NCBI RefSeq assembly: GCF_032854445.1
Contig: NC_088303.1
Location: 36,437,265-36,501,264 of the forward strand
Reading direction: 5' to 3'
Source of the DNA: Liolophura sinensis
Lineage: Eukaryota > Mollusca > Polyplacophora > Chitonida > Chitonidae
DNA length: 64,000 nucleotides
Shown: piece after piece, positions 1-59,469 of the stretch
How positions within the stretch are numbered: position 1 is the stretch's first letter
How the letters are laid out: every line of letters starts with the position of its first letter
The notes under the pieces: model-generated
Told to the model about the DNA's origin: nothing
The model's database searches: none
The model's input: only the letters and a program-made list of their open reading frames with translations
Translations under genes and position numbers: made by a program

Positions 1-249
1 CAGCCGTCAACCGCTGATCCCAGTGCTTATAAATATCAACAAGACTTCCTCATGCACGGTTACCCAAGCCCAAGGTTGAACTGTATGAATGCGCATGCTC
101 CCATGACAACAAACACTTCCGGATTATTTGGGGCGCCGGGTCCATATTGGTCATCTTCGAATGGAAATTTGTATCCGAATTTATCCAATCACATTCTGAC
201 TCATCATCCGGGCCATATGTCTTCACATCTGACTTCCTACTACCCATAA
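1..249 (+). CDS. ERG/FLI1-type ETS transcription factor, C-terminal part of last exon (5' end outside window)
   Basis: The frame is open from base 1 to the TAA at 247-249 and encodes 82 residues. It matches the tail that follows the ETS domain in the right-hand ETS gene of this window. Shared blocks are [24 protein letters not shown] and a terminal SHL-x-SYY. ERG and FLI1 proteins of animals end in a similar SHLGTYY motif. The DNA-binding domain itself must lie just left of base 1, so the ETS assignment rests on this paralogy. ERG/FLI1 proteins are nuclear, bind GGA(A/T) sites and control mesodermal, blood-cell and vascular genes in animals studied; the role in this animal is inferred. I cannot say which of the two paralogues is nearer to ERG or to FLI1. 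No frameshift or internal stop is visible in the part present. Confidence 0.88.
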   Translation, partial: QPSTADPSAYKYQQDFLMHGYPSPRLNCMNAHAPMTTNTSGLFGAPGPYWSSSNGNLYPNLSNHILTHHPGHMSSHLTSYYP

Positions 250-1600
250 TGCTATGTGTGGATGGCCAATCATTTGTTGTACAGACCCGTGTTTGTATAT
301 ATATATATTTTCGTGGGTTTCGTAGACTTTGAGTGTTGAAATGTCTTAGTGAGCGGAGATGGAGTGAATGTTGAGTGTTTTTTCTTAAACTGACAAAGTT
401 TTCTTATCCGATCTGGTTATATAAAACCCCAAATGGGCACAATTAAACACAGATAAATCTGAATGCATGAATCTGTGTTACAGTACGCCATACACGGAAC
501 ACTGTGACAGACTTGGATTTGATCACTCCAATCAAATGATCATCATTCACTAGCCGGATTTATCTGCATGTATCGATTATTATATGCGTGAACCGGACAT
601 AGTAAGCTACCTATCAATTAAAAGGTAAAAAAAAAAAAAATAAAAAGAAAAAAAAAAAACGTTTGAAACTACAAGATTTATGAGGTAGTACGTATAACAC
701 TATCCCAAAGCTGAGGATTGTGACGCAAGCAATTATTGCCCTGCACTAGACACTCGAAGACTTTCCTGTCTGTTGTCAAGTGTAGAAGGTTTTCAAATAT
801 AGGCCTACCAGAGTCGTCTTTTGGGTAGTAACAAACCGCTGAAGTCGGTTTCGCCTATATAGCTTTCAAAGCAAGGTTCCTTCTGCTTCTGTGAAGACCT
901 GAAAAGCCTGGTGAGCTATTCTTTTAATAACAGTGAATAATTCAAAATTCATTTTAGCCGAACGGAAGCCATTATTGATCCACCATATGAAGCAAGCTGC
1001 CAGAAGAGCTAATAATCAATATTTCCTCTAATTACCTCCCCTTAACCTCTGTCCCGACTGTAATGACACTCGATTATACTCCAAGTTTACTCATGAACCC
1101 TGTAGCAGAAATTCTCAACTCGTGGCATTACAGCGGTGTTACTAAATTTTGGGATGTTCAGATATTAGTTGCATTTATGGGAATAACCTTCAAGTCTGTG
1201 TGAGCAGTGGACTTGAGCATCCAGTCTGTCCTGCTACACAATGATATCAGCGTAACAGTTTGACGGTAATGTGGCCAAGGAACATCGATATGTATATGGT
1301 ACACAGGGGGAAAGACGCTAATTTTTTGTATTAAAATTGCAAGCATAGAAACATGTCATTTTTGGATCGAGAAGATAATGCTGAAATGGTATTTTCTCAC
1401 AAAACCAGACATAGATTTTTCCGGCTGTATCCCAAATAAAGATGAGAAATGAGTGACACATTAAAGCCTGTAGCGTGTGGCATGCATGTTACAAGAGCTT
1501 GTGGTGTGTTTCTAAGGTTCATATCTTTGACTGGTTATTTTTTCTGTATATATGTATATGTACATACCAACTATTAAAGCTAAAGCTACTCCTTCTGTAC
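250..1600 (+). other. Probable 3' UTR and flank of the left ETS gene
   Basis: There is no coding signal after the stop. Candidate poly(A) signals on the + strand are ATTAAA at 617-622, AATAAA at 639-644 inside an A-rich run (627-659), AATAAA at 1435-1440 and ATTAAA at 1573-1578. The last is followed by a T/GT-rich stretch (about 1588-1630), as expected downstream of a cleavage site. The transcript end cannot be fixed without RNA data. Confidence 0.45.
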
Positions 1601-1663
1601 TGTTTTTTTCTTTTCATTTTGTTCTTTTGTAGGTAATTAAATAGAGTTTTTTTTTCAGTTAGG

Positions 1664-1927
1664 GCACACTAAAAAATCATCTATTAATTTTAACATAAAT
1701 TCTATTGTTTGAGTGAGGTTGAAATGTATTCTGCTATCGCAGCAGATTGTTATGTTAAATATAACACACATATTCTAATAACTGAACATAAATATTCTAT
1801 TAGACTAACAGGATATTATGTTGAATATAACAGAATATTGTGTTATAATAACAGAACAGACCTACATTCTAGAATCACTCAGACAACAGACATTCTGCTA
1901 ATATTAACAGAATTTTTTTTTGAGTGC
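1664..1927. mobile_element. Foldback MITE-like element
   Basis: The two ends form long imperfect inverted repeats. The left end begins GCACACTAAAAAATC. The right end, read on the other strand, begins GCACTCAAAAAAAATTC. The similarity continues for about 60 bp, including TTTGAGTGAG against TCTGAGTGAT and AAATGTA against GAATGTA. The interior is full of short palindromic ATATAACA motifs. There is no transposase frame. This fits a non-autonomous DNA transposon; the target-site duplication is not clear. Confidence 0.55.
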
Positions 1928-4140
1928 ATGGCTGAAAAGCTGCCTAGTGTTTTGCTTATAACACGCCAAATTCAGTTCTGGGCGGCCAGTGTCTAATAAG
2001 ACAGATTAAAGTATCGATATACAATTGCCGAAGCCGTAGGCCACGGCCACACGGGGAATATAAATCACACTGAGGAAAGGAAAAGGGGGTAAAATAATGT
2101 TCAGCCAGCCCAGCCCAATGCTTTCTTCTTTATAACACAACATTCCATGCTGTAGTCATATATTTGTGACGTCACGCCAACACATTAACGTTTTCTACAG
2201 TGAACATGGTTTAATTTTTTAATATCATCCGCTAGATTTTATTTATTTATTTCATTGGTGTTTAACGCTCGCTATAGATTTTTATTTGATACTATTATTG
2301 GGACAAAATCCTTATCCTCGTATCGCGTTCGTTATTTAAAATGTGTGTGGCATTTCTTAGGAGAAGGGATAAAATTTCACATCCAGGGTTTAAATCCTTT
2401 CACACCTTTCTCAAAGCACGGGTAATTTATAATATTGGCTGGTTAAAATGTCTTTTTTTAGTACGATGTACTATAGTGTCACATATCCAGGTTTGCCTGG
2501 TCTGCGACTGGCGGACTGTCGCTAACGAAAATAGTCAAGCGATCGATGTGGTTGGGCGTTTAATCTTTTAAACAGCCGCTTTAAAATATCAGTTCTAGTT
2601 GGGTATATATAGAGAAGTAAAGCAGTGTAAAGTAAATCCACTGCTATGCTAAATGTTGGGTGAAATTGTGCCAAAATTTCATGCTAGCATCTTTTATTAA
2701 TGTTGATGTGAAATAACACAGAGCACGACAAGAAAGGCTTCCCTTTATTTTATTGGATGTTTTTCTTGTTAGAGTGAAATAAGCACCACTGCAAATACAT
2801 CTATATATCACACCTAGCTGAAAAGAAACAAAATTTGTGTTTCTTTTTAATAAAAGCACCATGTCTTTACATCCTCCAAAAAATTTATTTTGATTTATAT
2901 CGCATAATATATGTATAGGTTAAAACTATTACAGCTAAAAACATACAATCTTGGTCAGTGAAGTAAATCCAAACTTCTCCCTCCTTTTTCGTATATAGTT
3001 TATGCTGTAGTGCTTAACATAGGTGATGTCTGTTTTGTTTATACCAGAGGTTCGTGATTCAAAATTATTTTTCAGAGGTCAGAAAACAATTTTATGTAAT
3101 ATTCTTTCCGTACATGTATTAATAAACCAGATGGTAGATTTACATGTGACTTAAAACTTAAATGACAAGTCGAACATATGGTCAAACCTTGAAAGATTGT
3201 ATAAGGTTGCTGAGCCATGTATCTAAATATTTAGAACAGTTTAACATTGTTTAATTGTGTGTCATGTATTTCATCAAGATTATATAGATATAATTATAGC
3301 GTTCCCTGACGGGGTGTAATGCAAAAAAACAGCCTTGTCATCAGCTATTACCAACAGCTAAACTCTTGGATTCAACGTTAGTCAGATCGCCGACGTAATT
3401 TTGCCCAACATGGTTCTATCTTTTGAAATCAGATGGTGGTTAACAGTGCTAAGTTTTACATTTTCTAACGAATAACTGACACTGAAGCGATTTTTGTATC
3501 CTGATATCAAGTCCCGGGAAAAGAAAGCTGTTTTAAGGTTAGTGCAAAATGAGCCTTGAATTATGATCTTATTCCTAATCTTACGTTTGACCTTAAGCAC
3601 AAAATTTCAGTTTGTCACCCAACACACATTTGGTCAAGTAAAACTTACAATGGTTAGTCCGAAACTTGGCACAGCAGAGAGTTCTAAAGCTAAAATTGTA
3701 AGACTGTGGACGACTAATACACGTTATCTTCATTTAATATCTGAGATCCAGAATATCTTGGGGGTGGGGCTAGAGACGGGGTTGGGGGGATGGGAGAGCG
3801 GGTATGCCATCGTTTCTATGTTTAGGTATCCTGACTGATTACTTATGTAACCGACGTTTGATTCAGGTCGGATTGTAAACCTAGGCTATGGCAGGCAGTG
3901 GTGCCGGTGGTTGTCGAATAATGGAGGAGTATTGCGCCTGGCTTATATCTGTTGCTTTCTTCAGACATTATCCAATCGCAGCGTAAATTAACACGTTTTC
4001 ATCGTGTTAACAACTGTATGTGTATTCTTCACGGTATGGATATGGCATACAGACAATCCGCATGTTGATAAAGGTATCGTTGTATATACATATCTTCGAG
4101 ATGTTTATAAACCTGATTGTAGACCTTAGCTGTACCAAGC
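1928..4140. other. AT-rich spacer, no gene seen
   Basis: I see no coding frame with exon-like properties. A short TTTATTTATTTCATTGGTGTTTA stretch near 2238-2262 resembles the 3' tail of SINE-A and may be an old fragment. The rest is single-copy-looking AT-rich DNA with short homopolymer runs. Confidence 0.4.
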
Positions 4141-4146
4141 GGGAGT

Positions 4147-4391
4147 AATGAAAGCTTTCACCGATTACGTCTGACCATTTGCCAACTATCAAACCCCGTG
4201 CTGTAGTCTTTTATATATCTCTGTATAAACTAGGATTAGCGTGGCTGATTAAGCACCCTCGAGCCCTGATCACTTTGCATTATTTTCATGTGATGGTAAT
4301 GCAGCATTTTGAGCATATTTAAACCAAAGACGTCTAAAAAAACTGCAATTATCACCACTCCTCTGTTTGTTTGTACCTAATTCTGCTTAGA
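4147..4391 (+). repeat. Dispersed repeat R1, copy 1, left part (interrupted by SINE-B)
   Basis: It contains the R1 landmarks in order: CACCGATTACGTCTGACCAT, CTGTATAAACTAGGATTAG, TTTGCATTATTTTCATGTGA, CAGCATTTTGAG, GACGTCTAA and TAATTCTGCTTAG. The same order is found at 13.9-14.3 kb and, with changes, at 35.1-35.9 kb. The repeat is broken by the SINE at 4392 and resumes near 4770. Confidence 0.7.
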
Positions 4392-4745
4392 CCACTTCAG
4401 TGGCTTAATGGCTAGAGCGTCCGCCTCGAAGTGGGGAGACTTGGGATCAAACTCGGGTCGGGTCATACTAAAGACTTTAAAAGACTTTGGTGCTTGTTGC
4501 AGTCTCGCTTGGCGGCTAGCACTGAAATGTTAGAGCATGAAACAGGAATGGTTGGCCCGGTGTCAGTATAATGTGACTGGGTAGAGTGTCCTGTCTGGTG
4601 CCTTCGGCACGATTCTTGAGTGGCAACAGCGCTTTGGACTCGCCATGCCGCAGGAAGACGCAGTATATTTATATATACCCAATGAATCCTCGTCGTTATG
4701 TAACTGAAAAATTGTCAAGTACTACGTAAAGCCCCCAAGCATATA
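4392..4745 (+). mobile_element. SINE-B, near full length
   Basis: The tRNA-like head has an A box (GTGGCTTAATGGCTAGAGCG) and a B box (GGGATCAAACTC). A central domain follows, including GGCCCGGTGTCAGTATAATG and GTGCCTTCGGCACGAT. The 3' tail matches AATTGTCAAGTACTACGTAAA. The same head, core and tail occur on the opposite strand at 42361-42698. The element lies inside a copy of R1, so it is younger than that repeat. Confidence 0.85.
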
Positions 4746-4769
4746 TACATACATATGTAATTTGCTTAA

Positions 4770-4915
4770 GCTGGAGACTGTTGCTATTTTGAAGCGTTTA
4801 CATGAACAGTTAGATTTAGAGCCTAACTGAGGTAAAGCGACAAGGCTATATCACACTGTCATCGCTGATCTGGTTTTACTCTCCTTTACTCTTTTATACA
4901 CTAAAGACATTTAAA
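4770..4915 (+). repeat. Dispersed repeat R1, copy 1, right part
   Basis: It resumes at GTTGCTATTTTGAAGCG, continues through CATGAACAGTTAGA, ACTGAGGTAAAGCGACAAGG and then re-enters the start of a second R1 monomer (CACACTGTCATCGCTGATC, TGGTTTTACTCTC). The copy therefore spans more than one monomer, as in the other R1 copies. Confidence 0.65.
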
Positions 4916-5114
4916 CACGGAATATATGCGCCAAATCATGGTGTTAGTTGAACATTGTTACCAAATCCACCTTGAATTCGAGCCCTCAAGTCCATACCAG
5001 ACATCATAATAAATAAGATGATACTAAAGATATATTATCACTTCCTGAGTCGTGGATTTAGTAAACATATGAAGACACTTAACCCGGACAATTATTCCCG
5101 GCGAAAAACTTGAA

Positions 5115-5870
5115 TAACTTGTAACAGACATAACATCCGTAACAGACACAGGCTGCATCGGAGGGTACAACATTCGAAACAGACACAGACCGCATCGTAG
5201 ATACAACATCCGTAATAGACAGAATACATAACGGACTGACTACGCGGAGGGTACAACATCCACAACGGACAGACTAAACGGAAGGTACAACATCCGCAGC
5301 AGACACAGACGATGTGGTCTGTGTCTGCATGTTTCAAATGTTGTACCCTCCGTATTATTGACCTGGAACGTAACAGACTACACGGAGGGTACAACATTTG
5401 AAACATGCAGACACAACAACCGTAACAGACAGACTACACGGAAGGTACAACATCCGTAACAAACACTTCACGGAAGGTACATCCGTAACGGACTGACTAC
5501 ACGGAGGGTACATTATCCATGACGAACAGACTAAACGGAGGGTACAACATCCACAACAAACACAGAACTCATAGTGGATACAACATCTGTAACAGATAGA
5601 CTACACGGAAGGTACAACATCCGTAACAGACAAACTACACGGAAGGTACATCCGTAACGGACTGACTACACGGAGGTTACAACATCCATAATGGACAGAC
5701 TAAACGGAGGGTGCAGCATAAGTAACAGGCCACATAGTAGTTACAACATCTGTAACAGACAAACTGCATGTGGGTACAGCATCCGTAACAGAAACAGACC
5801 GCATTGTAATGAAAGCATCTGTAACAGACACAAACAGCATTGTAATTACAGCACACATAACGGACACACT
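5115..5870. repeat. Minisatellite, ~34-35-bp unit, about 20 copies
   Basis: Units read roughly CGGAGGGTACAACATCC followed by GTAACAGACAGACTACA. Copies diverge towards the right end, where GTAACAGACA remains. One segment inside the array is inverted (5321-5353 against 5382-5414). The short open frames on both strands are by-products of the repeat. Confidence 0.9.
5321..5414. repeat. Perfect 33-bp inverted repeat inside the minisatellite
   Basis: The arm at 5321-5353 is the exact reverse complement of 5382-5414, with a 28-base spacer. A second 10-bp hairpin, AGACACAGAC / GTCTGTGTCT at 5301-5326, sits just outside and overlaps the left arm. The arms carry normal minisatellite sequence, so one array segment has been flipped or copied in inverse orientation. 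Confidence 0.9.
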
Positions 5871-5922
5871 ATATCTGAATTTTATATTAGAGCTTGTAAA
5901 TTGTGAAGTAAAGAGAAATGAT

Positions 5923-6166
5923 TTATTCATTTATTTATTTGATTGATGTTTTACGCCAAACTCAAGAAACTTTCACTTATACGAAGGCGGCCAGCGTTAT
6001 GGTGGGGGGAAACCGCGCAGAGCCCTGGGAAACCCACGACCATCCGTAGGTTGCTGAGGGACCTTCCCTCTTACGGCCGGAGAAGAAGCTAGCATGAGCT
6101 GGACTTGAACACACAGCTACCGCATTGGTGAGTGGCACCTGGGTCATTGCTGCGTGCTGGCGTGCT
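5923..6166 (-). mobile_element. SINE-A copy, near full length
   Basis: Read on the - strand it has the tRNA-like head (B box GTGTTCAAGTCC), the core with GGCCG and CCACCATAACGCTGGCCGCC, and a tail ending in TCAATCAAATAAATAAATGA. Flanks AAAGAGAAATGA on the left and AAAGAAAAAATGA on the right look like an imperfect target-site duplication. Confidence 0.85.
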
Positions 6167-6174
6167 AAAAAAGA

Positions 6175-8745
6175 AAAAATGAATGGTAAATTTTCTAGGG
6201 CAAACCAGTTCAGTCCAATTTTCAGGTATCAGTCATTTTCAGCTTTCTCAAATAGCAGCATTTTGTTATATATATTTCAGATATCTCAAAACCTTTTCTA
6301 GCTCTCTGAAATTCTGTTGAACGTATATCCACAAACAATCACGGTCTACATGATCGCTAAATACCACAAATCAGAAATCAAACAAAATTGCAATTATCGC
6401 TCCTTAAGTAGGAGATGAACATACATATCGTCCGGGAAAACCATGGCACGTGGTAAAATACGTGTGTTTTGACAATAACTGTTACGTGATAATATGTGAA
6501 ATTAGCGTTTATATTCAGATGCCTTTACTGCATTTGGACAGTGTTGGAAATTATTTTTAAATATCGGAAATGTTTTTCTTTCAGTATGTTCCAGGCAAAA
6601 TTTATTTTACATGTCATAAAACGAATTTCAGATATGTGAAAATGACTTCCATATATGTCAAATTAATTAAGATGAGTCGAAATAAACTGGCCCAAGTCTA
6701 GATATCTGGAAAATAAATTTCCGGATATCCCACGTAGACTACCTATTGACTGCCTATATAGACTGCGAATTGGCTTGTCATAGCTATCAAGTGCCTCTTG
6801 TTAATATGTGTACAAGATCTACCGGTGACTCGGAATGATGTGTTACGATTGATACATATTTGATTTGACATTCTAGTGACATAGACCGCTGATCAGAGGT
6901 AGGCTAATTCGGTGTACGGCACGGTACAGCATTCACGTTGTTAGAATTCTTAATTTCAAATACAATATTAGAGCTGACAAGACTGGACTTTTTTTAATTA
7001 ATACAAAAATATTGATTTGAGGGTTTAACGTAGTAGGCAATAAACCAAAAGCTGTGTAACGCGGTATCAAAATCATTGCGCACGGTGTCAAAGGGAAATA
7101 ACTCGTGATGTAACATTTCCGTTTTGGGATTGGACATGGATAAACCACTACTGGGAATCTCTGAAAGCCTTATATACCTTAAACGATTGGAACGATACTT
7201 GTGGAACATGGCAAATGTTCCCTTACCTACACACCAAGTAGACTTTAAAGGTTGTCTCGCCAGGTGCTCTGCTGCTACGTTAACATTTAAACAATAACAT
7301 CGCCTAATCAGTTTTACTGAATCATGAAAATCGTATATCAATCAGGTACACATTGTAGTTGGCAACACTCAACCAAAAGCAAGAACAAACGTTTTTATAA
7401 TATTTTACAAACCAAAAACCAATTGACCTTAAATGTAGGAGATGATGTTACGATTATCCACGTCTGTAGAAATTCCAGTCCTATGATATCCGTGCATAGA
7501 AGACCTTTTCAAATTTTTGAAATTCAGTGCACGATATGACTTACCTGTCAGCTAAGAACAGAGCTTTCAGAACCCCTATAATGATCAGGTACATATAGCA
7601 GTTCACATCTTATTCTATTTAGTCCTGGACAATTGCAAATGGTAGTATAAGCATCATTTTAAATAAAATATTTCAAAATCAAAATAAACAAAATATGAAC
7701 AGATATGGAGATACGCTTCAGTTTTCACAGGACACAGGATTAACTGGTTCAAGGCAAATACGGATCACGAGATCAAATACAATTTCCTACTCTTTGGCCA
7801 TAGTTTGTAATCAGCATTTTTTGTAGTATAAGAATCTTAGCGACATATCAAATGTTGAATCTTCAGAAAAGTGCATATAGCTGGCTTTGAAAACATCACC
7901 GACATTGTTATGGTAAGCCAGCTTTGGGAGAATGCCGTCATGTGTTTTCATGGAATGTGTAGCATAAGGTACATCAGATCTGACCACCTGGCATGTACTC
8001 CCGATTTATTGGGACCAGGTGAACATTTCCTACAGTAAGACAGACCGCCCACATCTTCCATTGTTTGCATTTATTCTTCTTGTCTTGTTCATTACAGAAA
8101 TGATCTTTAATGTATACCTACATTCCAGCAAATGTTCTGGCCACATGCTATGGGCAAAAATGTGTGAAGTGTCATATCCTAAAAGCTCCTCCACGGTTGT
8201 CGCCCTTTCCGGACCGGAAATGGGATTGCCATGCTGGCACATTAAATATTTAGCCCGAAGAGGGAAAGTGTAATGCCTGGCGCCAAAGTGAATGTGTAGC
8301 GGTGATTTAATGCAGCCCCAGTTGATTCTTTTTTGTTCCATGTCGTCCAATGCTACTAAAATAATTTTAATGGAGCGTTGTGTAACACAGGTATATCAGC
8401 CTTAAGGACTCGTGTCTGTAAGATTCATTTATATACATAGTCTTGAATGCATATGTGTAATGTTCACAGTTTTGTCAGCTACAGGGAAATGTACGAAATG
8501 AATAAATGATCATGGCTTAACACCAATGAATGTTTGGGAAAAATATACACAATGATTCATCACATTTTTTCCTGAGAGAATGTGTGTGTGAATTTGTGGG
8601 TGGGGGGTGGGTTGTCAGGGAGATTTGTCATTTCTGTAAAAAAAAAAACAGATTTGTCTTATATGCATAATTTTTAAATAATAGAAAATAATGTAATAAA
8701 GTCATACCGAAGAAATGCATATATCATATATGTAATTTACGTAGT
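6175..8745. other. AT-rich spacer, no gene seen
   Basis: No exon-like frame was found. The longest frames (7.0-7.3 and 8.0-8.35 kb) overlap on both strands and have no recognisable domain. The piece near 8100-8340 is less AT-rich and free of repeats; it could be regulatory, but nothing specific supports that. A G-rich run lies at 8599-8612 and short A runs near 8640. Confidence 0.35.
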
Positions 8746-8752
8746 TCTTTAT

Positions 8753-8940
8753 CTGATTGAAGTTTGACGCCGTACTTAAGTATATTTCACTTATACGACG
8801 GCGGCCAGCATTGTTGTGTTAGGAAACCAGGCAGGGTCCGGCCGAAGTCCACGACCACCTGGACTTGAACTCACAGCAATGGCATTGTTGTGAGGCTGAT
8901 TGTGCTGCGCTAGCACGCTAACCGTTACGCCATGGAGCCA
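8753..8940 (-). mobile_element. SINE-A copy with internal deletion
   Basis: It has the tail-side sequence CACTTATACGACGGCGGCC and, on the - strand, a B box (GAGTTCAAGTCC) and an A-box-like head (CCATGGCGTAACGGTTAGCG). About 35 bp between the core and the B box are missing compared with the copy at 21736. Confidence 0.8.
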
Positions 8941-8989
8941 TGCTAGTGAATAACGTGCAAGTCGTCTTCTGTCAGAATAACATAATGAC

Positions 8990-10460
8990 CCGGTTTGCGC
9001 TATATCTTTCTGTTTGACACTAACCATCCGCCATCGATGGGTCATGGTTCCAAAACTCCGCCTTACTGGCTCTTATCTATTCATTTTCCAAATTTATATG
9101 TCCATAAATGTAATTGTATATAAACAAATAACTGACGTATTCCAAATTTAGTTATTAACTACTTATTTTCCGATACATTATTGCAAACATAACACGGAAC
9201 TACAGCTTATTCACATGCAAGCGCGCAGTCAACAGATCGCTTTAAAGAAAAACTATCTAGTCGATGAAGGCTGGGAGATTCTCAGATGTATTGTTCCCTA
9301 TGACTTCCTCTCACTTCTCAATTTCTGACAGCTTTCTCCTTATCTGCATCACGGTATTCAATAAACAACGGCCTCTGATGGAAGGGACATCTTCGCTGAG
9401 ATCGCTGAGGTCGTGATTCAATAACATCAGAGAACCAGTAAAACCACAGGAAGAGAAAGAGTCACAGAAAAAAAGGAGTGCGAACAGCGCGTAGGAATTC
9501 TGGTTTTATGGATCAATCGTCTCATAATGGAAAGATAACCGAATTCAGGAAAGAAATCCAATTTGAGAGTACAAATAAACAATCTGTTAGAGCGATCCAC
9601 CTAAGAAGCGATGCCTTTCGATACGCTTTGGGAAGCGGAAATTACTGCCCGAGGAACGTGTCTCCATGTTTTCCTATCCGCTGTCTCTTTTGCGTTCATT
9701 TTCCTGGCCAATTCGTGATTTCCCAGCGTTCTAGTCCGGTGAGAGGGAAATTCATTATTGTAAACATGACTTTAGATGATCAATAATCACGTTCAGATAA
9801 AGCGCCTCGTTATTTGAACGTATGTCTAATCAACGGCCACCTCAAGTTTGTTGCCATTAGGCCTCGTTGAGGATCACGCGTCACGTGTTAGGGGTCACGT
9901 GTCACGCGCTCTGCGCATGCTCAGTGATAAGAGTGGCAATGATTTAAACAAACGATCATGAATCATGTTGAATCTAATTCTCCGCTAAAAGTTTATTCTT
10001 CCAAAGATGCGGCGATTACTTTGTAAGGAGAAGTGAAACGGAAATGGCTTTGATTGCATACAGATAAACTTACACAGCGTGGAAATGTCTGGGAAGAGAG
10101 GCCCTTCCCCGGACTGCCCCTGCCTAATTAGTTTCATGATTAAACTTCGAACGTTATCCGCGAGTGGAAAGGAATGGCAATAAATACTGTTTATCGTACG
10201 ACATCTTTTAATTTGGCTGGGCCTTCGCTGAAAGAAAAGTGCTATTGGCGGATATCAGGAAAGGGAGAAGAGATAAGCTAACGGTGTATTAGCGGCATCT
10301 CTCCTCTCCGGACACCATCAGCTAAACTAGTTATCCGTCACCTACTCTAAGCTACAGGGCACGTCCAGCACTCCAATCAGAGAACAGGGAAGGAGGTACC
10401 GGTATCACACAAGGAATACTCCACACTGAATCCTCCTGAAGTTGACTAGCGGGTGGATAG
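8990..10460. other. Repeat-free block, candidate regulatory DNA
   Basis: About 1.5 kb with balanced composition and no SINE or minisatellite. It contains two CACGTG E-boxes 14 bp apart (9882-9887, 9896-9901) and an NRF1-like TGCGCATGC (9912-9920). No coding frame stands out; the 102-codon frame at 9478 has no recognisable features. The regulatory role is inferred only from composition and from lying beside developmental regulators. Confidence 0.3.
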
Positions 10461-10504
10461 ATTTATTCATTGATTGAGTGTTTGATTACTTGATTAATTG
10501 AATG

Positions 10505-10680
10505 AATGAATGAATGGATGTTTGGGGTTTAACGTCGATTTTTTTTAAACAATTGTTCAGTCATATGACTACAATTAGGTGTCATTAGGTGTGTGTACAT
10601 ATACTATGTCTTCTTGTGGCAATCAGTCCATGCGGACGATTGAGGCGGACTATCTAACCACTAGGCCACCGAAGCTGTCT
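10505..10680 (-). mobile_element. SINE-B-like element lacking the central domain
   Basis: The left end carries the SINE-B 3' tail (TTTGGGGTTTAACGTCG, CAGTCATATGAC). The right end, on the - strand, carries a tRNA-like head (GGTGGCCTAGTGGTTAGATA, then GTCCGCCTCAATCG). The core domain of the full elements is absent, so this is an internal deletion or a related short family. Confidence 0.65.
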
Positions 10681-10734
10681 GTTTAATTGATCTATTGCTT
10701 GATAGGCTTTGTGGTTCATAGGATGACTGATTGA

Positions 10735-48729: not shown

Positions 48730-49136
48730 GTTCGATAAAAGGACCTTTTTACTTTTTACAGTCTGCTCGACAAAATGTCACACCCCTATATGAATTCCAC
48801 TGGATGTCTTGCTGTTAGTAGGACGCTACTCTGGTTAGTAGATGGTTTAGCTCCATTAAAATTTGCTAATGCGGTAATTTCTTCACTTTACTTAATCATC
48901 TATGTCTTTGAATGGTGCTTTTGTGACGTTTAACGTTGATGTTGATTCGATAAGTCTGGGTGAAATCCAGACTCCTCCTCACAAGAAACCTAATAAACCT
49001 CTCTAGATGTAAGGTCGTAGTCTGGTCATAGGAGACTAGAAATTCTAACATATACGTGACCTCACTGGTCAACATACAGCGGTACGAACGCAGGTTCTTG
49101 TCTATTGTCTCAGCAACCAGAACACAAATTTGTTTA
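48730..49136. other. Spacer, no gene seen
   Basis: No repeat or exon-like frame is recognised. Confidence 0.35.
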
Positions 49137-49137
49137 T

Positions 49138-49292
49138 TCACTTATTTATTTCTCTTATTTGGTTGTTGTTTTACGCCATTCTCAAGCAGTTTTCACCTTG
49201 ACGATGTCTGTCTGTTTTATGGATGGAGGAAACCGGAGTGTCTGGGTAAACCACTGACTTTTGGCATGCCAGTGAAGAACTTTCCCACTAGA
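49138..49292 (-). mobile_element. Diverged SINE-A copy
   Basis: TTATTTGGTTGTTGTTTTAC, GCCATTCTCAAGCAGTTTTC, GGATGGAGGAAACCGG and AACTTTCCCACTAGAG follow SINE-A order with many substitutions, suggesting an old insertion. Confidence 0.7.
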
Positions 49293-49294
49293 GA

Positions 49295-49674
49295 TGTACA
49301 GATATGCATCGGAGCGGTCTTCACTCGGTCTTTAGGGAACGTCTGCGCAAACGACAATACAGTCACTGTCAACATTTAGTGTCACGGGGTCCCCAGGAAA
49401 AGTGAGAGTGGTCGACGCCATAAACTGTCCATGGCCGGGATTCAATACGCACATCGTGTGTTCAGCAAATGAAAGAAAATTTTCTTCACTAACCCTCGAA
49501 ACTTACGGCTAAAGCTGTTGTATTGTTGTTGTTCCGAGCTCTTTCCGTTGTGCTATAGAGTGAACGAGTCATCATATAACTAAACAAACAAAACATTGTT
49601 ACTGCCAATTTCCCGGCCGTCTATCGCCAAACTGCTATAAACAGGATACTTCCTTTGAAAACTGGTTATTCAGA
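49295..49674. other. Spacer, no gene seen
   Basis: No repeat or exon-like frame is recognised. Confidence 0.35.
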
Positions 49675-49686
49675 GTGTTTCTATGA

Positions 49687-49813
49687 TTTTATTTATTTGA
49701 TTGGTGTTTTATACCGTACTCAAGAATATTTCACTTATACGAGGCGGCCAGCATTATGGTGGGTGGAAACCGGGCACAGCCCGGGGGAAACCCACGACCA
49801 TCCGCAGGTTGCT
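49687..49813 (-). mobile_element. SINE-A, 5'-truncated, 12-bp target-site duplication
   Basis: GTGTTTCTATGA lies at 49675-49686 and 49814-49825. The 127-bp body has tail and core only, and on the - strand starts at CAGCAACCTGCGGATGG. The sequence is close to the full-length copies, so the insertion is young. Confidence 0.93.
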
Positions 49814-49829
49814 GTGTTTCTATGAAATT

Positions 49830-52800
49830 TATAGCGTAGTAACCCATAACTTAAATGGTTATAAGGTGAAAGATTGACTTTAAAACATGTCCTGAGATGC
49901 ATATTGATGCACTTTGCGAGCATCGCGGTTTCTTGCCAATTACTGTTGACTTCTATGCAGAATAAAGGAGTTATTCATTATACGGCAATATTACACACGA
50001 GATAAACGATCGTCTACCTGGCAATTAGCTGTTCAGAAAATGCGAACATGACAGGCGAGCTAACGAGGTTTGGGGGACCTCAGCTGCCATATGTTAGTGG
50101 GAGTCACTGGGCTGATGTCGTTTCCTGCCCGGCCCCCTCACAAAGCATACAGCCAGTGTATGCACCTATTAGACACTGGTCGATTTACCATTGTAGTAAA
50201 ATCAGAGCCAAAACTACAGCCGTGTTATGATCTTGTCACGCTATAGTTTTCACCTGTTTTTACACCGATGATTTATGTTCGTCGATCGCCTTTGTGTACA
50301 TTGACCAAAAACCGCGCCTTCAATGTGGTCAGTGTAGGACTCTCTGAGAAATTACTGGGTTATTTTTTTGTGATTTGCAAAATAAGACTTAATTTATTTT
50401 TCGGATTAGAAATTGATACTTTGTCAATATAAGTTCACACTGGTGTTGTGATCGACAAAGGTTTGTACGGGAGCAGCTGATTTGCCGTGGCCTTACCGTG
50501 ACACTGAGTATTGAACAGGTATTCCAATAACAATTGTTCTATTGGCCTGCCTGAATTTCTGTTATGGTTGTTCAACCTCTGAAATAATTAATCAACTCCA
50601 TCTATGGTCGCCAGCATGTATAAATTAACTTTGCTTAGTGTGTCTCTGGATGTCCAGTATAGAACGACTGAAGCGTTACAGAGAACGCGCAGAATCACAC
50701 AGTTTCTCCAAAATGCCACTATGATAGGATAATCCGACACTGTTAAGAAAGGATCTAATCATTTCTTTGAAACTTATCGTCTACAACGAAAACGTTATTC
50801 ACACATACTATAATAAAGAGGTTGCTAACTAAGATGGCTATGAGCCTGACAGTTGTGAGAGGGGTAATATAATAAAGTACAATGTATATACGCACCGACA
50901 CATAGCGACAGCAGGGGCGGCTTGTTGCCGTTTGAAGCACAATAGAAAGGTCCTCCTCTCTTATTCACATCGCCCTTGACAATTCAGTTCTAAGGCGGGC
51001 TTGATTTACACCTGTGCCCAGAAAAAATAGAAAACCTCAGTGTGAAAAACAGCGAATTCTATTCATGCAAACTGGCGAGGGCATTAATGCTGACATTTCA
51101 TACTCGGCCACGGGGCATATGTTGTTGTTTGCCTTTTATAATTCAAAATGATTTGTGGTTAAAGGGAAAACACATCCACTAATTTATTCTACATATCCAG
51201 TGCTTAAAGTCAACGAGTGCAATATTTTGCTCAAAAGTATTATTAGGCAATAGCTGGGAGGAATATATTAAAATAATTATCAAAACAGCGTAGTCCGAAC
51301 GCTATATTATGTAAAGTTACGTTAATCCCAGTGTTGAATTAATCCACTTGGAATCTGTGCAGTGTGTACAAATATTGTAAAAATAGCCGTGTTAGGAATT
51401 TACTACACATGTAGTTTGTTATGTATCGTGACGAAGGAACTCTAAAAGAACGTTAAACTGAGCATAGCGCAATTTAATCCGTTTACCCTTGTTAGCGAGA
51501 TGAATGCCTTTTGTTGTACTTGATGCAACATACCCTATCACCCCAAAGTTCAACAAGTACTCTTTTGCATTGAAATTAATTTCAATGCATTGAGTCGTGT
51601 GCCCCCCTAAATCATCGATCGGGGGATTGTACCACACTTTGGATTAAAGATGTATAGTTGGCATAAACTAGATCATGGTTATTTTCAATTTTTTATGATA
51701 TGTTCAAATTAATGAAATGCATTGTTAGCTATCAGCGTCTCTTAGTCCTAAGGTAAAGAGTTACGTTCCCAAACACACGTAAAGTGTAAAAAATATAAAA
51801 CATTGCGTCATTTAAATAGTTTAAATATTAGGACCAAAATACATGTGCTTAATGTTTGTCCTTTTATATTTGTTCATGTTCAAATTATGATGGATTGGAC
51901 AGAGAAATTATATTATGCAAAAGCGAAGCTGTCAAAAGCTTCTATTAAACCATGTCAAAAAGACGCATGGTGAGTTATGCATGAAATCTTTGATTAATAA
52001 GTGTTAAATCTAGAAAACCATCGTAAATTTATAATTAATTAAAAAATTAATTTTAATTTGTTTCACAAAAACAACAAAATCTGAATATTGTCCAGACATT
52101 TATTACGGTTCTTTATGTATGTATCCTAGAAAAAGCCTACACACATTCATAATACATATATACCACTTAGCATTAATAACATTTTGCCAGACTTGTTGTC
52201 TGCTTCATTTCTTGTTTGATAATAGAAAGTGCCTCGTCCCCTTGATTATGAAGTTTACCCCATATCTGCCCCATGACCACTAGGAAGAACATATTGGCTT
52301 GCAGTTTAACTATACACACGCAGTGGCTTTTGCTAATAACCGCGAACTTTCTTGTACAAATAAACAACAAAAACGACCTTTTCCCAATTCAGAACGAGCT
52401 TATAAATGTAAATATTAACGACGGTGTTAACTTAAATGTAGAGTGGCATACCCAGATACACTCAGGTGATATATGTCGCGTATAGTCATGATTCCTTAGT
52501 TTATAAATATGCATTTGCTATAATAATGCAACATAGTGAAAGTCCAACAAGACGCCTATCTATGGTTTGCCCTATAGAGAAACTTCTTCTGAGCAGTGAA
52601 CAGGGTAATCAGATTTCCATAGTATATGCCCTAATATATTTCCTCAGTGTTAAAGAAAATCATTTCTATATAATTGTGACTAGTAAAATTAAAAAACAAA
52701 GTGCATATTCACAGGAAACTGAAAATCACCATGAAAATTTATCACACCATGTGTCATTCTAATCAACGATGAAAAGGGGTAATGGTGAAATCTTTATGCA

Positions 52801-53100
52801 ACACGGCAAAGTTGTCCGGGACTAAACGGAATAAGATATGAACAGTTAAGGATTCGGAACGCTTTGTACACACACGTGTGCCTAGCTGATAGAATACGTC
52901 TCTGTATAGCCTGCTGAATTGCAGAATTTTGAAACGAAGGCGTTATACGGAGCATCATTATTACTCAAGTTAATAAAGTAGTAATTTGTGGCAACGATCT
53001 TGACCCATTGTCTTAATACGATATTTTCATTTTCAGCATCACTAATTCATCTAACTTGGTCTAAGATAATCTGACTGAAACAATGTTCGTATCATGCAAT
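49830..53100. other. Long spacer, no gene seen
   Basis: No dispersed repeat is recognised in 3.3 kb. The parts 50040-50230 and 50500-51130 are more balanced in composition; the rest is AT-rich. The frame at 52466-52762 (98 codons) has no recognisable domain. Confidence 0.33.
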
Positions 53101-53116
53101 CACCGAATACATCGCT

Positions 53117-53254
53117 GCCAGTAACCTGCTGATGATCAAGGGTTTCACCCGGGCTCTTCCCGGTTTACTCCCACCATATAATTCTGGCGGCAATCGTGTA
53201 AGTGGAATATTCTTGAGAACGGCGTACAACTCCATCCAAATAAAATAGAAATCA
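53117..53254 (+). mobile_element. SINE-A, 5'-truncated, + strand, 11-bp target-site duplication
   Basis: AATACATCGCT lies at 53106-53116 and 53255-53265. The body begins GCCAGTAACCTGCTGATGAT and runs through the core to CATCCAAATAAAATAG. It starts at nearly the same internal position as the copy at 49687. Confidence 0.88.
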
Positions 53255-53267
53255 AATACATCGCTTT

Positions 53268-53335
53268 GCACGATATGGCTGAAATACTGTTAATGTGGCG
53301 TTCAACACGATATATTCATGAATTCAATCAAATAT
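53268..53335 (+). mobile_element. Third SINE-type tail, single-unit form
   Basis: CACGATATGGCTGAAATACT, GTTAATGTGGCGTTCAACAC and ATTCATGAATTCAATC form the tail also seen, internally amplified, at 43681-43835. Confidence 0.65.
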
Positions 53336-53339
53336 ATTT

Positions 53340-55655
53340 ATATGAGGATTTCACTTTTCTATGCTGATTAAACCCTCAAACTATATTTGTGTAAGATATA
53401 TGAAACTGATTAGCAAATGAACGATGTCTGTACATAGCTATTTATTTTCATTTTATAACTACTATTTATTTTTTTTTTACATTTTCAAGAGGAAGACTCA
53501 CAAAACAGAGTACATGTTTTTCGTGGTGACTGCTTTAACGCAGCAAAAGCAACTTTAAACTTAACGAAAAAGTGTATATGCTACAGGTAGCATTGCTTCC
53601 AAAATGGTTTATTTCATATCCGTGTACACAGGCATGCATATAAAAGAAGATTTACCTTTAAAAAATGCACCAAAGATATATAAAAAAATAAAGAAAAACA
53701 GAATGTTTCGTGGTTTTGTAACTATTGTAATTTTACAAGACGAGTTCCATCGTCTACAAGTTTAACAGTGCATTATTTTGTTCCCTACTTCCGTATGTCA
53801 CCCTTTGTCCAATATACCCAGACTATAGTTCTGATAAAAAAGATTACATCTAAATATATGCTTTAAAACAAGATTTTGTGCACACATGCAAGTGCTGAAA
53901 TTGTTGTGGTAAGACTTAATATCCTTCAGCAACATGTAAAACACCTGGAGATTATACTAAAAATGTGGTTATATTTAGTGACGGTTATTTAAAAAATAAA
54001 ACAAAAAGACCAGCCGAAACAATGTCGTTGTTATTTTTGGTTGAAGGTAAGACGCTTTTGGTTTTATGATGTTTAACTTAATTGTATTTCACCAGAGCAA
54101 ATGTAATCAAACCCAAATGAGGTGTCAGAATAGCCCTCTAAGTAGGCTTATACGTCAATCGATATGTCTATTTATAACTACTTGCCTGAACAATGAATAT
54201 CGGGATTATGTCATCGTGCGACTATGTTATTAAAGCTTGGACACATAATTGGGTCCATTTTGCCGGGATTGTTTGAAAGGCTTCCACCTCGCTCCTTCCA
54301 CGACCGTTGCACACCGCAGTTATCGTTACTCGGAGCTATACGTCTCGTCCCACGCGCCCTAGGGTTTGCACATAAACTGCATTACTCAAAGAAAATGACC
54401 AATAATAACAAACGCCAGGTGTCATAAATAACCGAGTGTTACAATATAGCAGTTTATGGCTTACTTCAGCGCTGCCGGATCTGTTAATCAACACTGCGTG
54501 GCTATAGTGCTAGAGAGCATCCTGGCCTGTTACCGGCGAAGAAGACAAGAGCATCCCAGCCGGTTACCGAACGGGAAGACTGTTTCTACCCAACTTAGCC
54601 ATTAAACTGCCAACCTTTTTATGAGTATTGATTGAAGTTTCACATGACACCGCCCCATCTTTCATCGGAGCGAGCGGAGTCGGGTTATATGCACAGAAGC
54701 TCTGGACTAGCGGAGGGAAGTGTCTACCTCGAACAGCCGTAGACCCCTGTTGTTTAATGTAATCATGTAGCATTTTTATTAACACTTCGTTGCTTATAGC
54801 GATGTTTTATCTAAAGTGAATAAAAGTCACCCAACAACATAGAACGCAAGTACAGACATGGTTCACCTATAAGAGACAAACATTAAAACGCAATGAACAT
54901 TTCTGCTCGTTTTGCATATTCAGTAGCCGTCGCGATTGAAATTATCAACATCTGCCATCTACACGCTGAATTTTAAGCCACTGATTGACAACCGTGATAT
55001 AGCCAAATTTCCCTTACGCATCCAAATACGCAAACGTGATAATCGTGTGATATATCTCTTAATAACCATTAAGGATATTGTGCCAGTTTAGAGGTATTAT
55101 TCCCATAGTTAGTCAAGTAATTTACGTCATAGTTTATGACATTTAAATACCCTATCGCTTGCATGTTGTACATCATTTCAGTAGCGTATAAAGTATTAAG
55201 GTAGAGAAAATAGTACTATACATGGGTCATGTTTATAAACGTTCGTTTGGTAATTTCGGTGACGTCATTTTTGTCTTAGATAAATTTACAACATGGAAAC
55301 TGTATGTTTACGAATTTAATATATTCATTGCTAAAATATGGTTTATTTTTGCATGAAAATATCATTAAACCGTTTCCAGATATTAAAATACCCTTATGTC
55401 CAACTGATGTACATGCAGAAAATAAAAAAAATGGGATACTTTTTTTTTTCCAGTTATGAGGTTTTTGTAGTTAAGACGTTAATATGATACATCCTGCTCG
55501 GGAGAACGTGAAAGATGTATGTATTCACAGATGACTTACACGTATTATATGAAAAATATCTAAGATAGCAATAGATTGCTGATAGATAAGTGAGATTTAA
55601 ACTTTCGATATGAATTTAAACTTATACTGAGTGTAAACGTGTACACCCAATAATT
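53340..55655. other. Spacer with one short duplication
   Basis: GAGCATCC(T/C)(G/A)GCC(T/G)GTTACCG occurs twice within 54507-54570. The region is otherwise AT-rich except 54220-54760, which is balanced. No gene is supported. Confidence 0.35.
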
Positions 55656-55659
55656 GTAT

Positions 55660-55735
55660 GGAGTGAGTGAGTGCTTGGGGTTTAACGTCGTATTTAACAA
55701 TTTTTCAGACATATGACGACGATAATTATATGGAA
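55660..55735 (-). mobile_element. SINE-B 3' tail fragment
   Basis: GAGTGCTTGGGGTTTAACGT, CGTATTTAACAATTTTTCAG and ACATATGACGACG match the SINE-B 3' end; core and head are missing. Confidence 0.8.
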
Positions 55736-55739
55736 GCCT

Positions 55740-56825
55740 CTGAGTTTTTAACCTGCAGTTATCTTCACGTGATATTTTGCTACATATCTTGATATCGCCT
55801 GGGCCTAATGTATAATAAATCATTTAAATAGAAATAAAACAAAGTCACAAGTGACTTGACTTTAGAATCAGCTCAATTAAAGATTTTAGCAAATGATAAC
55901 ATAGCGTATATTAATTACTTGAGGAAACATATAGCCTGTATATAGAATCTATGTAAATGGCCCCGCGCACATTCTGCGGCGGTATTGCGTTTATCGCATT
56001 TATTTCACAATTTTAACAGTCATCTCAAAATATTAATTCGTAGTCAAACCGATTGCAGTGGGATGGAGAGCTCTTTGTCCCTACCGTCAGATGTAGATCT
56101 TTTTTTTATGACGAGACAATTATGGCGTTCCTTTAGCGCAAGCTCTTCCCTTTCCTGCGCTCCATTCTGAAAAGTCATCGAAGGGGAAGTCGATTTTAAA
56201 TAAAGATACCACGAAAATATACTTATTCATCGCATGTGACAATTACAATCAACCTCATGTACGACACAGCATTATGCAGCCCGGACCTGCCGCATACTTG
56301 TGCAGAAATATTAGCTACACGACATGCAGGCTTTAACTCTGTAGCACCTAGTCCATAACCTGCTCACCTGATTTAGGCTGAACATATAACAGGTTAACTG
56401 TTATACATGCGACTCCATAATTTCCTTCAAGAATTAACTCCATAATTTGCTATAAGAATTGACACGCACATATAAATGACACAATAATCAAAACAACGCT
56501 AAGGTGAGGTTAAAAAAAATCTTCAAAAAGATTTAATTTTGTTCAATGTGAAACAAATGTACAGTAAATACAATGTAACAATTAGGTTTCGATAAAATAA
56601 ATACGGACGTATCTGTAATATTGTGTAGCGATAATATATCTCCTGTTGGCGAAAAAGTAAACTTTGTGATCCGTTGTTCTGAGCGGATATGTTGTTATTC
56701 CAACCACATCAGCGGTCACGTGGCCATTGTGTAAAAACGCCAAACTACGACGTGTAGTGAAAGCTTTTTCTTCATACACGTCTAGAAATAATATCGCCCA
56801 TTTTCTGAAATTTACATCTTATATT
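55740..56825. other. AT-rich spacer, no gene seen
   Basis: No repeat family or exon-like frame is recognised. Confidence 0.35.
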
Positions 56826-56829
56826 ATAC

Positions 56830-56948
56830 AGGCAGATGAATTCAACGCAGCGAGAAGAGTCTATGTGTTTAACATGCTATTTGGAAAGAGAGTCGCACGT
56901 GCAGTTTTGTTGGAGTTCCAACACGTGCCATGCTCAATTCATCTGCCT
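56830..56948. repeat. 13-bp inverted repeat with inner hairpin
   Basis: AGGCAGATGAATT (56830-56842) is the reverse complement of 56936-56948. Between them GTTGGA / TCCAAC and GCACGTG / CACGTGC form a second imperfect hairpin. It may be a small foldback element. Confidence 0.55.
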
Positions 56949-57189
56949 CTAACAACATCCGCTTGGCACGCGCTCACTCGAGCAAAACAATTGAGGGCGG
57001 TGCTGTGCATGGGCGAATTATCTTTTTACATTATTTCAACCAACACGTGTGTTCGCCATTTTTACCTTGGTGCAAATTTAAACTTGAGCAATTTTCTGCG
57101 GAGTTTAAAACGAAACATACGCTCTCCCATCCAACACACCCGTCCGTTCTCAGAGCGGAGTGCCCTCTGGTGGAGGGATCTCATACATA

Positions 57190-58060
57190 GAAGATAGGGG
57201 AAAAGTTTTCACCGCGGAGAGATTATGATCTGAAGTTAACTATAGAGCAATATATTACACCGGGCAATGGTATAGCAACTTGCCATAATCCAGAGAGATG
57301 ATAGAAATTCTATCACCAATGTCAGTTCTGAAAGGCAAATAAAGCCGTTTCAAATCATTGACTTTGTTCTTAACCCCCGCTATTTCATTCCGTTTGATTT
57401 GATCTGTGTCTAAACTGCGAGATTTAATTACACTATTAGGATGTCCGTTGGAGCCGTCGTCCTGGGAGGAAGGCAGGCCACTTGGCTGCCAACCCCGCAA
57501 GACCATGTCTCAGAGGAGAAGTTTTCTAATCGGGTGTCCATTGTTGGAATAAATGAGCGGGCTCTATCAGGCGACCGGCTCAAGAGCCTGGTTGAGATGA
57601 CTTTGACACGACGGCTTCTTCAGCTCAGACCCGTTAACAGTTCTATCTGATCGCCAACTCTTTAAACCATATGGAATAAACAGCTCCGTTGTAATGAATG
57701 GCACCTTTCATAAGCGGCCGCCATGGGACCTTAGAGCTAAACGCTCTACACGGCAACAAGGCGAGATGGGGAGAGATAGCATCGTAGAATGACATTGAAT
57801 TTCTCTCAACATTTCCTATTCAGGATCTCGTGTGCCTGCCGTCTCTGCGACTTAAAAGACTTTGACTGAGATAAAACCGGAACTCATTTCGCTGTGGAAA
57901 GAGAGCCTCTATCGATCAGATTCATCAGAGAGGAAAAGAAAATCATGAAATTCATGCCAGCACAAAACGCATACAAGTTTCCCCTTCCTTATTCCAAGAC
58001 GATCTATAAAAACGTCAGTTTTCTATCAACAGTAGCGATATTAGAATCTAGAATCATCCC
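57190..58060. other. Low-repeat block near the right gene, candidate regulatory DNA
   Basis: Balanced composition without repeats. It contains TGAGATAAAACCGGAAC (57869-57885), which joins a GATA word to an ETS core (CCGGAA). Frames on both strands lack domains. The regulatory role is inferred. Confidence 0.3.
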
Positions 58061-58939
58061 GGGGAAATAAATTACCCAGCTACAAACAGGAGGAAGTCCG
58101 CTTCGACCAACAGACGTCCATTACACGCAGACTGTTTAGCTCTGTACAAACCAAGTGACGACGTCTGCAATATGTAACAACGCCATACAGGGAAAAGAAA
58201 ACGACAACATCCTTCAAGGTCAAAACACGGTAACGCCAAACAAAGAATGACGCCAGACAAAGAATGACGCCCACGAAAGAATTAAACAGAAATACATGGG
58301 AATTGTATAGTATATAATGACGCAAGTTTTCGGAAAAAACCCCAAATGCAATATTAGTAATAAAAGTACACGAGGAAAAAAAGAGACATTTTTGCGACAT
58401 AAGTAATTCGACTTCATAGCTGATTTGAAAATAAATAATCCGCGCTTTTGAGTTCAACCAAGTCCAAGAGCTCTGTTTTTTTTTTCTCATTAATCGAGTA
58501 GGTGGGGAGTCAAATGGAGTGAAAGCACTCGGAAAACTTAAGACATATCGTAGATACTAGTATTTGAACACAAGTAGGTCACTCGAACAAAAAAACATAA
58601 ATGATTTCAGCAATATATTTAACAACGTCAGGGAAACAAAAGTTATTGTTCCTTTAACAATAATTATATACAAATTTTATATTTACACATGTTTACACAG
58701 TTCATGTTTAAGGGAATTAGTGAATCAATTCCTCTTATGTCATAAGATAAATTAAACTATATACATATATTGCACAACCTTCAAATGACTAGTGAGTTCC
58801 AAAGGCCGGGTAGGGACAATAGTCAAGAACCGCCGTGGTGAGCATCATGTGGTAACCTTCCAAAAGTTTCAGGTGTACCCTATAGTTTATATAGAAAAAA
58901 ACAGTTTTGGGAAGTCAATATGTAAGCAGGCACCTACAC
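58061..58939 (-). other. Probable 3' UTR and flank of the right ETS gene
   Basis: This lies downstream of the stop on the - strand. I find no canonical AATAAA or ATTAAA on the - strand in this stretch, so the transcript end may use a variant signal or lie further left. Frames of 62-136 codons on the - strand (58.07-58.49 kb) have no recognisable domain. Confidence 0.4.
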
Positions 58940-59469
58940 TCAAGAATAGTATGAGCCAAGGTGTGAAGACACGTGGCCTGGATGGTGTGACATGGTGTGA
59001 TTGGGCAGTCCTTGATACGTAATAGCACTCGGCGACCAATAACTGGATGGGCTACCGAAGAAACTAGACGGAGACGACTGGATGGGCGCATGGGCATTCA
59101 TAAAGTTCAATTTTGAGTTGTGATGGTGATAACTCGACATAAACAAGTCCTGTTGGTATTTGTAAGCGCTGGGATCGGCCGCTGTGGGCTGCATTGCCTG
59201 AGCCAGTCCAGCAAAGTCAAATTTGTAGGCGTATCTTTTGCCATGAACTTTGGTCATGATGTTTTTGTCGTAGTAATATCGGAGAGCTCGGCTCAGTTTG
59301 TCGTAGTTCATGTTGGGTTTGCTTTTGCGTTCTCCCCATCTCCTTGCCACCTCATCCGGGTCGACCAGTTTGAACTCTCCGTTAGTTCCCTCCCATGTTA
59401 TACAACTGGCATTCGTGCTGTCGGATAAAAGCTCCAAAAGGAACTGCCACAATTGGATTTGCCCACTGC
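58940..59469 (-). CDS. ERG/FLI1-type ETS transcription factor, terminal exon with full ETS domain
   Basis: The exon opens after a strong acceptor (TTCCTTTCTGACTTGTTTTCCAG, - strand) with the last two bases of a split Gly codon, and encodes 175 residues to the stop at 58940. Residues 1-85 are the ETS winged-helix domain: [13 protein letters not shown] (helix 1), [26 protein letters not shown] and [12 protein letters not shown] (recognition helix with its DNA-contacting arginines), then [30 protein letters not shown] and [17 protein letters not shown] are typical of the ERG/FLI subfamily, not of ETS1, ELK or SPI. The tail ends SHLGSYYS. The protein should bind GGAA sites in the nucleus. It faces the left ETS gene tail-to-tail. 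I leave the symbol empty because ERG versus FLI1 orthology cannot be decided here. Confidence 0.97.

Follow-up and report, generated by a model that had tools for sequence, protein, structure and literature searches.

Two diverged, convergent ERG-subfamily ETS paralogues in the chiton Liolophura sinensis share a stretch of the ETS core that is near-identical at the nucleotide level, probably through ectopic gene conversion between the inverted copies. The two genes lie tail-to-tail on one chromosome (C9) with their ends 58.7 kb apart, and what is observed in the pair is a bounded stretch identical at silent sites between linked copies that are otherwise diverged. By nucleotide alignment, a stretch of 155 nucleotides that encodes the ETS core with the recognition helix, at positions 59187..59341 (minus strand) in the right gene, is identical to the left gene. 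The last 5 bases of the left copy are at positions 1..5 (plus strand), and the remainder (C9:36437115-36437264) lies outside the window.

The window is the whole 64,000-nucleotide stretch that was analyzed (C9:36437265-36501264), from an assembly of L. sinensis that was first named L. japonica. Its left edge cuts the last coding exon of the left gene, whose 3' end, encoding the C-terminal tail, is at 1..249 (plus strand) as one open frame with the stop codon TAA at 247-249. The whole exon (C9:36436987-36437513) runs past this edge, and leftward extension of the contig, proposed in the earlier note, located a complete ETS domain in the same open exon, left of base 1 (C9:36437001-36437237; Pfam Ets, 126.9 bits). 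A PNT domain (PF02198, 74.7 bits) is present at C9:36420661-36420867, and the left gene comprises PNT plus ETS, which is ERG/FLI1-like. The last coding exon of the right gene (58940..59469, minus strand) encodes a complete ETS domain and a C-terminal tail and ends in TGA; the penultimate coding exon (GYPHTPIPSMGKGCDPTHSQWRPQ-G; 62537..62608, minus strand) is in phase 1 on both sides and has a diverged left-gene homologue near C9:36430007-36430084. Both ETS domains are of the ERG type, the C-terminal YKY...SHL-SYY tail is present in both translations, and the two tails have 30-38 identities over 80-82 columns with the human ERG and FLI1 tails. Chance likeness is excluded because the right exon matches FLI1/ERG at E ~1e-66 in the PDB; its matches to FEV (4.3e-55) and ETS1/2 (~1e-36) score lower.

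The earlier note had described two ERG/FLI1-type genes. Membership of the ERG subfamily, the full ETS domains and the facing orientation stand, but they do not appear to be equivalent as ERG/FLI genes, since the searches gave a PNT domain for the left gene and none for the right. Among 20 genome matches from a first-look search that was not exhaustive, there was no PNT on C9 besides that of the left gene, and the best tblastn match of the left PNT in C9:36496000-36547600 covered 16 residues on the opposite strand (E 0.024). That the right gene has a PNT exon farther away was dismissed after these searches. The N terminus of FEV gave no match better than E 1.1 in the interval of the right gene. 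The 5' exons of the right gene were not found in the genome searches, so its lack of a PNT rests on these searches and not on a transcript; from the sequence, this gene appears to encode an ETS protein without a PNT.

The interval between the two genes (250..58939) comprises 58,690 bp with minisatellites, which account for the longest open reading frames listed for the window, and no gene was found in it. Ten larger non-repetitive intergenic frames (115-183 residues), drawn from the 67 frames of at least 90 residues in the window, gave no Pfam match above the curated cut-off and two weak ones below it, a sampling that smaller multi-exon genes could escape. The Rfam scan of the same stretch gave no match at the gathering score, and a hidden gene between the pair was dismissed on these results. 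Both stops were seen where the earlier note had placed the ends of the facing exons, 249 (plus) and 58940 (minus), and its view that no supported gene lies between them agrees with the Pfam and Rfam results. To the right of the right ETS gene, the next gene on the same strand has two FHA half-domain exons (Pfam) and, judged by eye, looks like NBN. Three further open reading frames in the flank had no Pfam match.

The identity of the tract extends to sites at which the protein sequence imposes no choice. Between positions 59187 and 59383 of the right gene, 1 of 197 sites differs from the left gene, as compared with 15/87 sites upstream and 16/55 downstream in the same exon. Third positions differ in none of the 51 codons 44-94, in 2 of the 15 codons 29-43, in 10/28 codons before these and in 10/19 after. 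Where an identical residue has degenerate codons, the same codon is used in 47/47 cases inside the run and in 49/82 outside it; for the ETS part and the tail, the counts are 76/86 and 20/43 (Fisher p=7.7e-7), and at the four-fold sites of the tail 6/17 are the same, a small count. The 3' edge of the run is abrupt, with differences at 5 of the first 10 bases past it, and the 5' edge is gradual, the differences thinning out from exon position 65 to 128. A run of this length was reached in 0/100000 shuffles of the whole exon and 0/50000 shuffles of codon blocks; permutation restricted to the ETS part gave a weaker result (188/100000). A DNA search of the genome returned six matches, led by the two loci (100% and 95%) and followed by ETS1/2 at 80% over 122 bp. 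All these tract comparisons were made within one L. sinensis genome.

Outside the tract, the copies are well separated. The tails match in 46/80 aligned codons, in line with the earlier count by eye of about 46 of 82 residues, so the pair are not haplotypes; the penultimate exons have diverged, and the introns have no long shared match. The earlier conclusion of old paralogues as opposed to an assembly duplicate is upheld in its second part, but "old" is half the story, since the ETS core looks homogenized. A tree of nine ETS domains, which contained no FEV and no arthropod sequence, grouped the pair with ERG, FLI1 and a third ERG-like gene, which is divergent and lies on C1, in an ERG-type clade (support 82/92, not starred) within which ERG, FLI1 and the chiton pair were not separated. 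In vertebrates, ERG lies beside ETS2 and FLI1 beside ETS1, and ERG, FLI1 and FEV are dispersed. This linkage is absent here because there is no ETS1/2 match on C9, the ETS1/2-type gene being at C1:70.07 Mb, and the arrangement is, as had been anticipated, a different one; the lineage-specific origin that the earlier note called probable is no more than a possibility, given the ERG-subfamily tandem pairs reported in three bivalves (PMC10664356).

Conservation of the tract without exchange, by purifying selection on its nucleotides as an exonic enhancer, splice signal or RNA structure, is unlikely. The tract does lie where the protein is most conserved and the constraint on its sequence strongest, its 5' edge is gradual, and coding enhancers can occur in developmental genes; however, the abrupt 3' edge and the use of the same codon at all 47 degenerate positions argue against it. 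So do the other ETS genes of the same genome, none of them an ERG orthologue from another species: their 24 pairs share just 28-53% of ETS-domain codons (0.34-0.53 in 14 pairs of six ETS genes and 0.28-0.48 in 10 pairs of five ELF/ESE-type genes, three of them linked), whereas the ERG-type pair has 65/72 (0.90) in common. It is possible, although doubtful, that the pair is an ancient one that predates the molluscs and was later blurred by conversion, with the PNT-less right gene as molluscan FEV/Ets65A orthologue and the PNT-bearing left gene as ERG/FLI1. FEV is without a PNT, ERG and FLI1 have one, and searches, as opposed to a transcript, gave no PNT for the right gene; the chiton pair has FKL and GLAQ in common with FEV but not with ERG/FLI1 among the PDB matches. 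The right exon, however, scores higher with ERG/FLI1 than with FEV, although the ETS domain is a poor marker in this matter because it looks homogenized with the left gene. The right tail is also nearer to FLI1 (38/81) and ERG (35/80) than to FEV (19/62), and the ERG clade was not resolved in a tree lacking FEV and arthropod sequences.

The 92/94 identical residues of the ETS part could also reflect a recent duplication in which the tail evolves fast, an explanation that is highly improbable and was dismissed because silent divergence is not evenly low across the exon: silent sites are strongly diverged both in the tail and upstream of the tract, in addition to the diverged penultimate exons, the lack of a long intron match and the PNT exon found for one gene only. 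An assembly or haplotype artefact, either a duplicate haplotig or one copy written onto the other, has a very low probability. The tract is short and HiFi coverage was only 14x (PMC11068029), but both copies are placed on a single scaffold, oppositely oriented and differently flanked, and HiFi reads with a mean length of 8.3 kb (PMC11068029) would reach across the tract into its unique flanks; a duplicate was dismissed on the scaffold, the flanks and the 46/80 tails. The assembly was made from HiFi reads with hifiasm, purge_dups and Omni-C scaffolding, and short-read polishing is not described in the available part of that report (PMC11068029).

Ectopic (interlocus) gene conversion between the inverted copies would thus have homogenized the ETS core, and may have done so recently, in that the tract differs less than the genome-wide heterozygosity of 1.24% (PMC11068029). 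The DNA-recognition surface would then stay the same in both proteins, which would compete for the same GGAA sites; they are predicted to differ in docking through the PNT and in the C-terminal tail, and different outputs might therefore arise at shared targets. If so, conversion is a way to hold DNA recognition together in two factors whose regulatory parts diverge. Rather improbably, the facing exons may form a live recombination hinge, in which conversion keeps the recognition helices of the PNT-bearing and PNT-less genes identical and an occasional crossover within that stretch of the ETS exons inverts the 59-kb interval; such a crossover would swap the C-terminal tails and 3' ends with both genes staying intact, and both tail assignments would be carried among chiton populations or species. 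For the chiton genomes already available, gene conversion itself makes a definite prediction. The sorting of ETS paralogues commonly relies on the ETS domain, and where conversion overwrites that domain, trees would call old pairs recent and lineage-specific; with the core homogenized, ETS-domain trees cannot date this duplication, and the naming of molluscan ERG, FLI1 and FEV genes would be affected. No earlier report of gene conversion in an ETS pair was found in literature searches, which is no proof of absence; one paper matched for "gene conversion" (PMC2533025) concerns nematode transcription factors.

Vertebrate ERG, FLI1 and FEV share the ERG-type ETS domain with the chiton pair and have the YKY...SHL-SYY tail and, in the last exon, the ETS domain as a whole, but vertebrate ERG and FLI1 differ in their linkage to ETS2 and ETS1, the chiton ETS1/2 gene being on another chromosome. 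Engrailed and invected of insects, neighboring transcription factor duplicates that reportedly undergo concerted evolution, differ in being homeobox genes. The Dlx pair of Capitella teleta is also of linked transcription factor paralogues, inverted tail-to-tail and divergent overall, near-identical at the DNA level in the DNA-binding domain and with a Geneconv fragment of 150 bp, as compared with 155 nucleotides in the chiton (PMC3199776). It differs in that the domain is a homeobox and the fragment includes intron sequence (PMC3199776), whereas the chiton tract lies inside one exon, and in the chiton just one copy has a recognized PNT. A partial genome duplication has been described in L. sinensis (PMC12005716). 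Table 1 of a survey of molluscan genes types only FEV, and neither Fli1 nor ERG, in the cephalopods and gastropods covered (PMC10664356). In bivalves (T. granosa, C. gigas and M. yessoensis), the ERG subfamily occupies two chromosomes and includes one or two tandem pairs, as compared with the C9 pair and C1 gene of the chiton; the orientation and silent-site identity of the bivalve pairs are not stated in the main sections of that report (PMC10664356). Because these bivalves carry such tandem pairs (PMC10664356), the chiton ERG-type pair may be old within the molluscs.

The two ERG-type ETS genes are paralogues that face each other tail to tail, and both of these points from the earlier note stand. 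The window occupies C9:36437265-36501264. The C-terminal tail of the left gene (window 1-249, + strand) is the 3' part of an ETS exon whose start lies 278 bases to the left of the window; this exon contains a complete ETS domain. The ETS exon of the right gene (window 59469-58940, - strand) also holds a complete ETS domain and scores far higher with FLI1/ERG than with other ETS classes. The ETS parts are identical at 92 of 94 residues. A gap of 58,690 bp, in which no gene was found, separates the coding ends and includes minisatellites with units of 33 bp (window 11180-12146), 27 bp (23651-24132) and 62 bp (29642-30495); the long open frames in the first two look spurious. Across the searched genome (609,464,459 bases in 632 contigs) there are 15 ETS matches, two of them exons of one gene, and only those of the pair lie on the window's contig, C9.

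Ungapped alignment of the two last exons revealed a run of 155 identical nucleotides (left, C9:36437115-36437269, window -149 to 5; right, window 59187-59341) inside a stretch of 197 nucleotides with a single difference. This stretch is flanked by 15 differences in the preceding 87 nucleotides and 16 in the following 55, and its boundary is abrupt on the 3' side and gradual on the 5' side. Along the first 113 codons, third-position differences are, in order, 10/28, 2/15, 0/51 and 10/19, and identical degenerate residues use the same codon in 47 of 47 cases within the run versus 49 of 82 outside it. The run length was reached in none of 100,000 permutations of the exon, in 188 of 100,000 of the ETS part alone, and in none of 50,000 codon-block shufflings. 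When 29 kb surrounding the left exon was compared with 28 kb surrounding the right one, 21 DNA matches emerged, the longest being the last exon itself (400 bp); the other 20 span 47-169 bp, and by eye most look like dispersed repeats, repeatedly hitting the same few places.

The pair shares 65 of 72 ETS domain codons, as compared with 34-53% for the 14 other pairs among six compared ETS genes and 28-48% for the 10 pairs among five genes that we take to be of ELF/ESE type, three of which fall within 142 kb of one another. As a DNA query, the right ETS exon gave six matches: the pair's loci at 100% and 95%, then ETS1/2, at 80% along 122 bp, and three that are weaker. The heterozygosity of the genome is 1.24% (PMC11068029), so that with 1 difference in 197 (0.5%) the paralogous stretch is as alike as two alleles.

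Upstream of its ETS exon, the left gene has a penultimate exon ending in QWRPQ-G, a further exon ending in DPYRFPKP-G and a PNT exon at C9:36420661, all in phase by eye. With the human ERG PNT, the PNT exon shares 42.6% identity (E 1e-19), and it is the sole C9 member among 20 PNT matches genome-wide. The penultimate exon has a diverged homologue in the right gene (window 62608-62537, - strand), the first exons of which were not found. To the right of that gene, on the same strand, lie two FHA half-domains (C9:36569307-36569519 and C9:36572265-36572585) of a gene, presumably NBN, with its last exons by eye near C9:36547587. The right gene appears to lack a PNT domain because none was found in the interval up to this FHA gene. 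On the left side, about 90 kb from the window, C9:36337294-36346591 has a run of ORFs, one integrase-like, that by eye looks like a Polinton/Maverick element; 80 kb to the right, an intronless ORF of 2093 residues (C9:36581517-36587795) resembles by eye a ZNFX1-type helicase with NFX1 zinc fingers.

The duplication is considered old because silent sites in the tails are strongly diverged and a PNT was found in one copy only. On this sequence evidence, the pattern is best explained by an old duplication in which ectopic gene conversion between the inverted copies would have recently overwritten the ETS core. The two proteins would thus have the same binding sites and differ in docking and tail.

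Human GABPA, ETS2 and ERG are all on chromosome 21. In the chiton, the vertebrate linkage of ERG with ETS2 and of FLI1 with ETS1 is absent, in line with the earlier note: the pair lies on C9 and the ETS1/2-type gene maps to C1, at 70.07 Mb. The C1 genes that we assign to the GABPA and ETS1/2 classes are 725 kb apart (C1:69340315-70065633), with a PNT exon near each. A third, divergent ERG-like gene (C1:85269284-85269520) matches ERG/FLI1 best in the PDB (E 6e-38), followed by FEV (1.5e-35); none of the 20 PNT matches is near it, and it is possibly what bivalve surveys call FEV. Eleven PNT matches, spread over both strands of some 133 kb at C6:38306186-38439378, where none of the 15 ETS matches falls, apparently form a local array of PNT-only genes, of which three loci were inspected.

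The assembly (GCA_032854445.1), based on HiFi reads of mean length 8.3 kb, was first published under the name Liolophura japonica (PMC11068029), corrected to L. sinensis (PMC12441733). In its mitochondrial piece, ND2, COX1, COX2 and ATP6 share one strand and ND5 and ND4 lie on the other (names other than COX1 by eye), an arrangement that fits a mollusc. We take this gene order to be chiton-like. One contig, C99, has seven COX1 copies spaced about 15.5 kb apart, a head-to-tail mitochondrial concatemer that is probably an assembly product; C632 is the single-copy mitochondrial contig.

A lineage-specific origin of the pair, as the earlier note suggested, is unproven, and the tree proposed there cannot settle it when built from ETS domains. 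Three bivalves are reported to have ERG-subfamily tandem pairs, and their subfamily members occupy two chromosomes (PMC10664356), as do those of the chiton with its C9 pair and divergent C1 gene. In Table 1 of that survey, only FEV is typed outside bivalves, with no Fli1 or ERG, which counts against a mollusc-wide pair; if ETS domains are homogenized, however, this Fli1/ERG/FEV typing is unsafe. The closest precedent is the Dlx pair of Capitella teleta, which is tail to tail like the chiton pair; Geneconv identified a 150-bp fragment in its homeobox region (PMC3199776).
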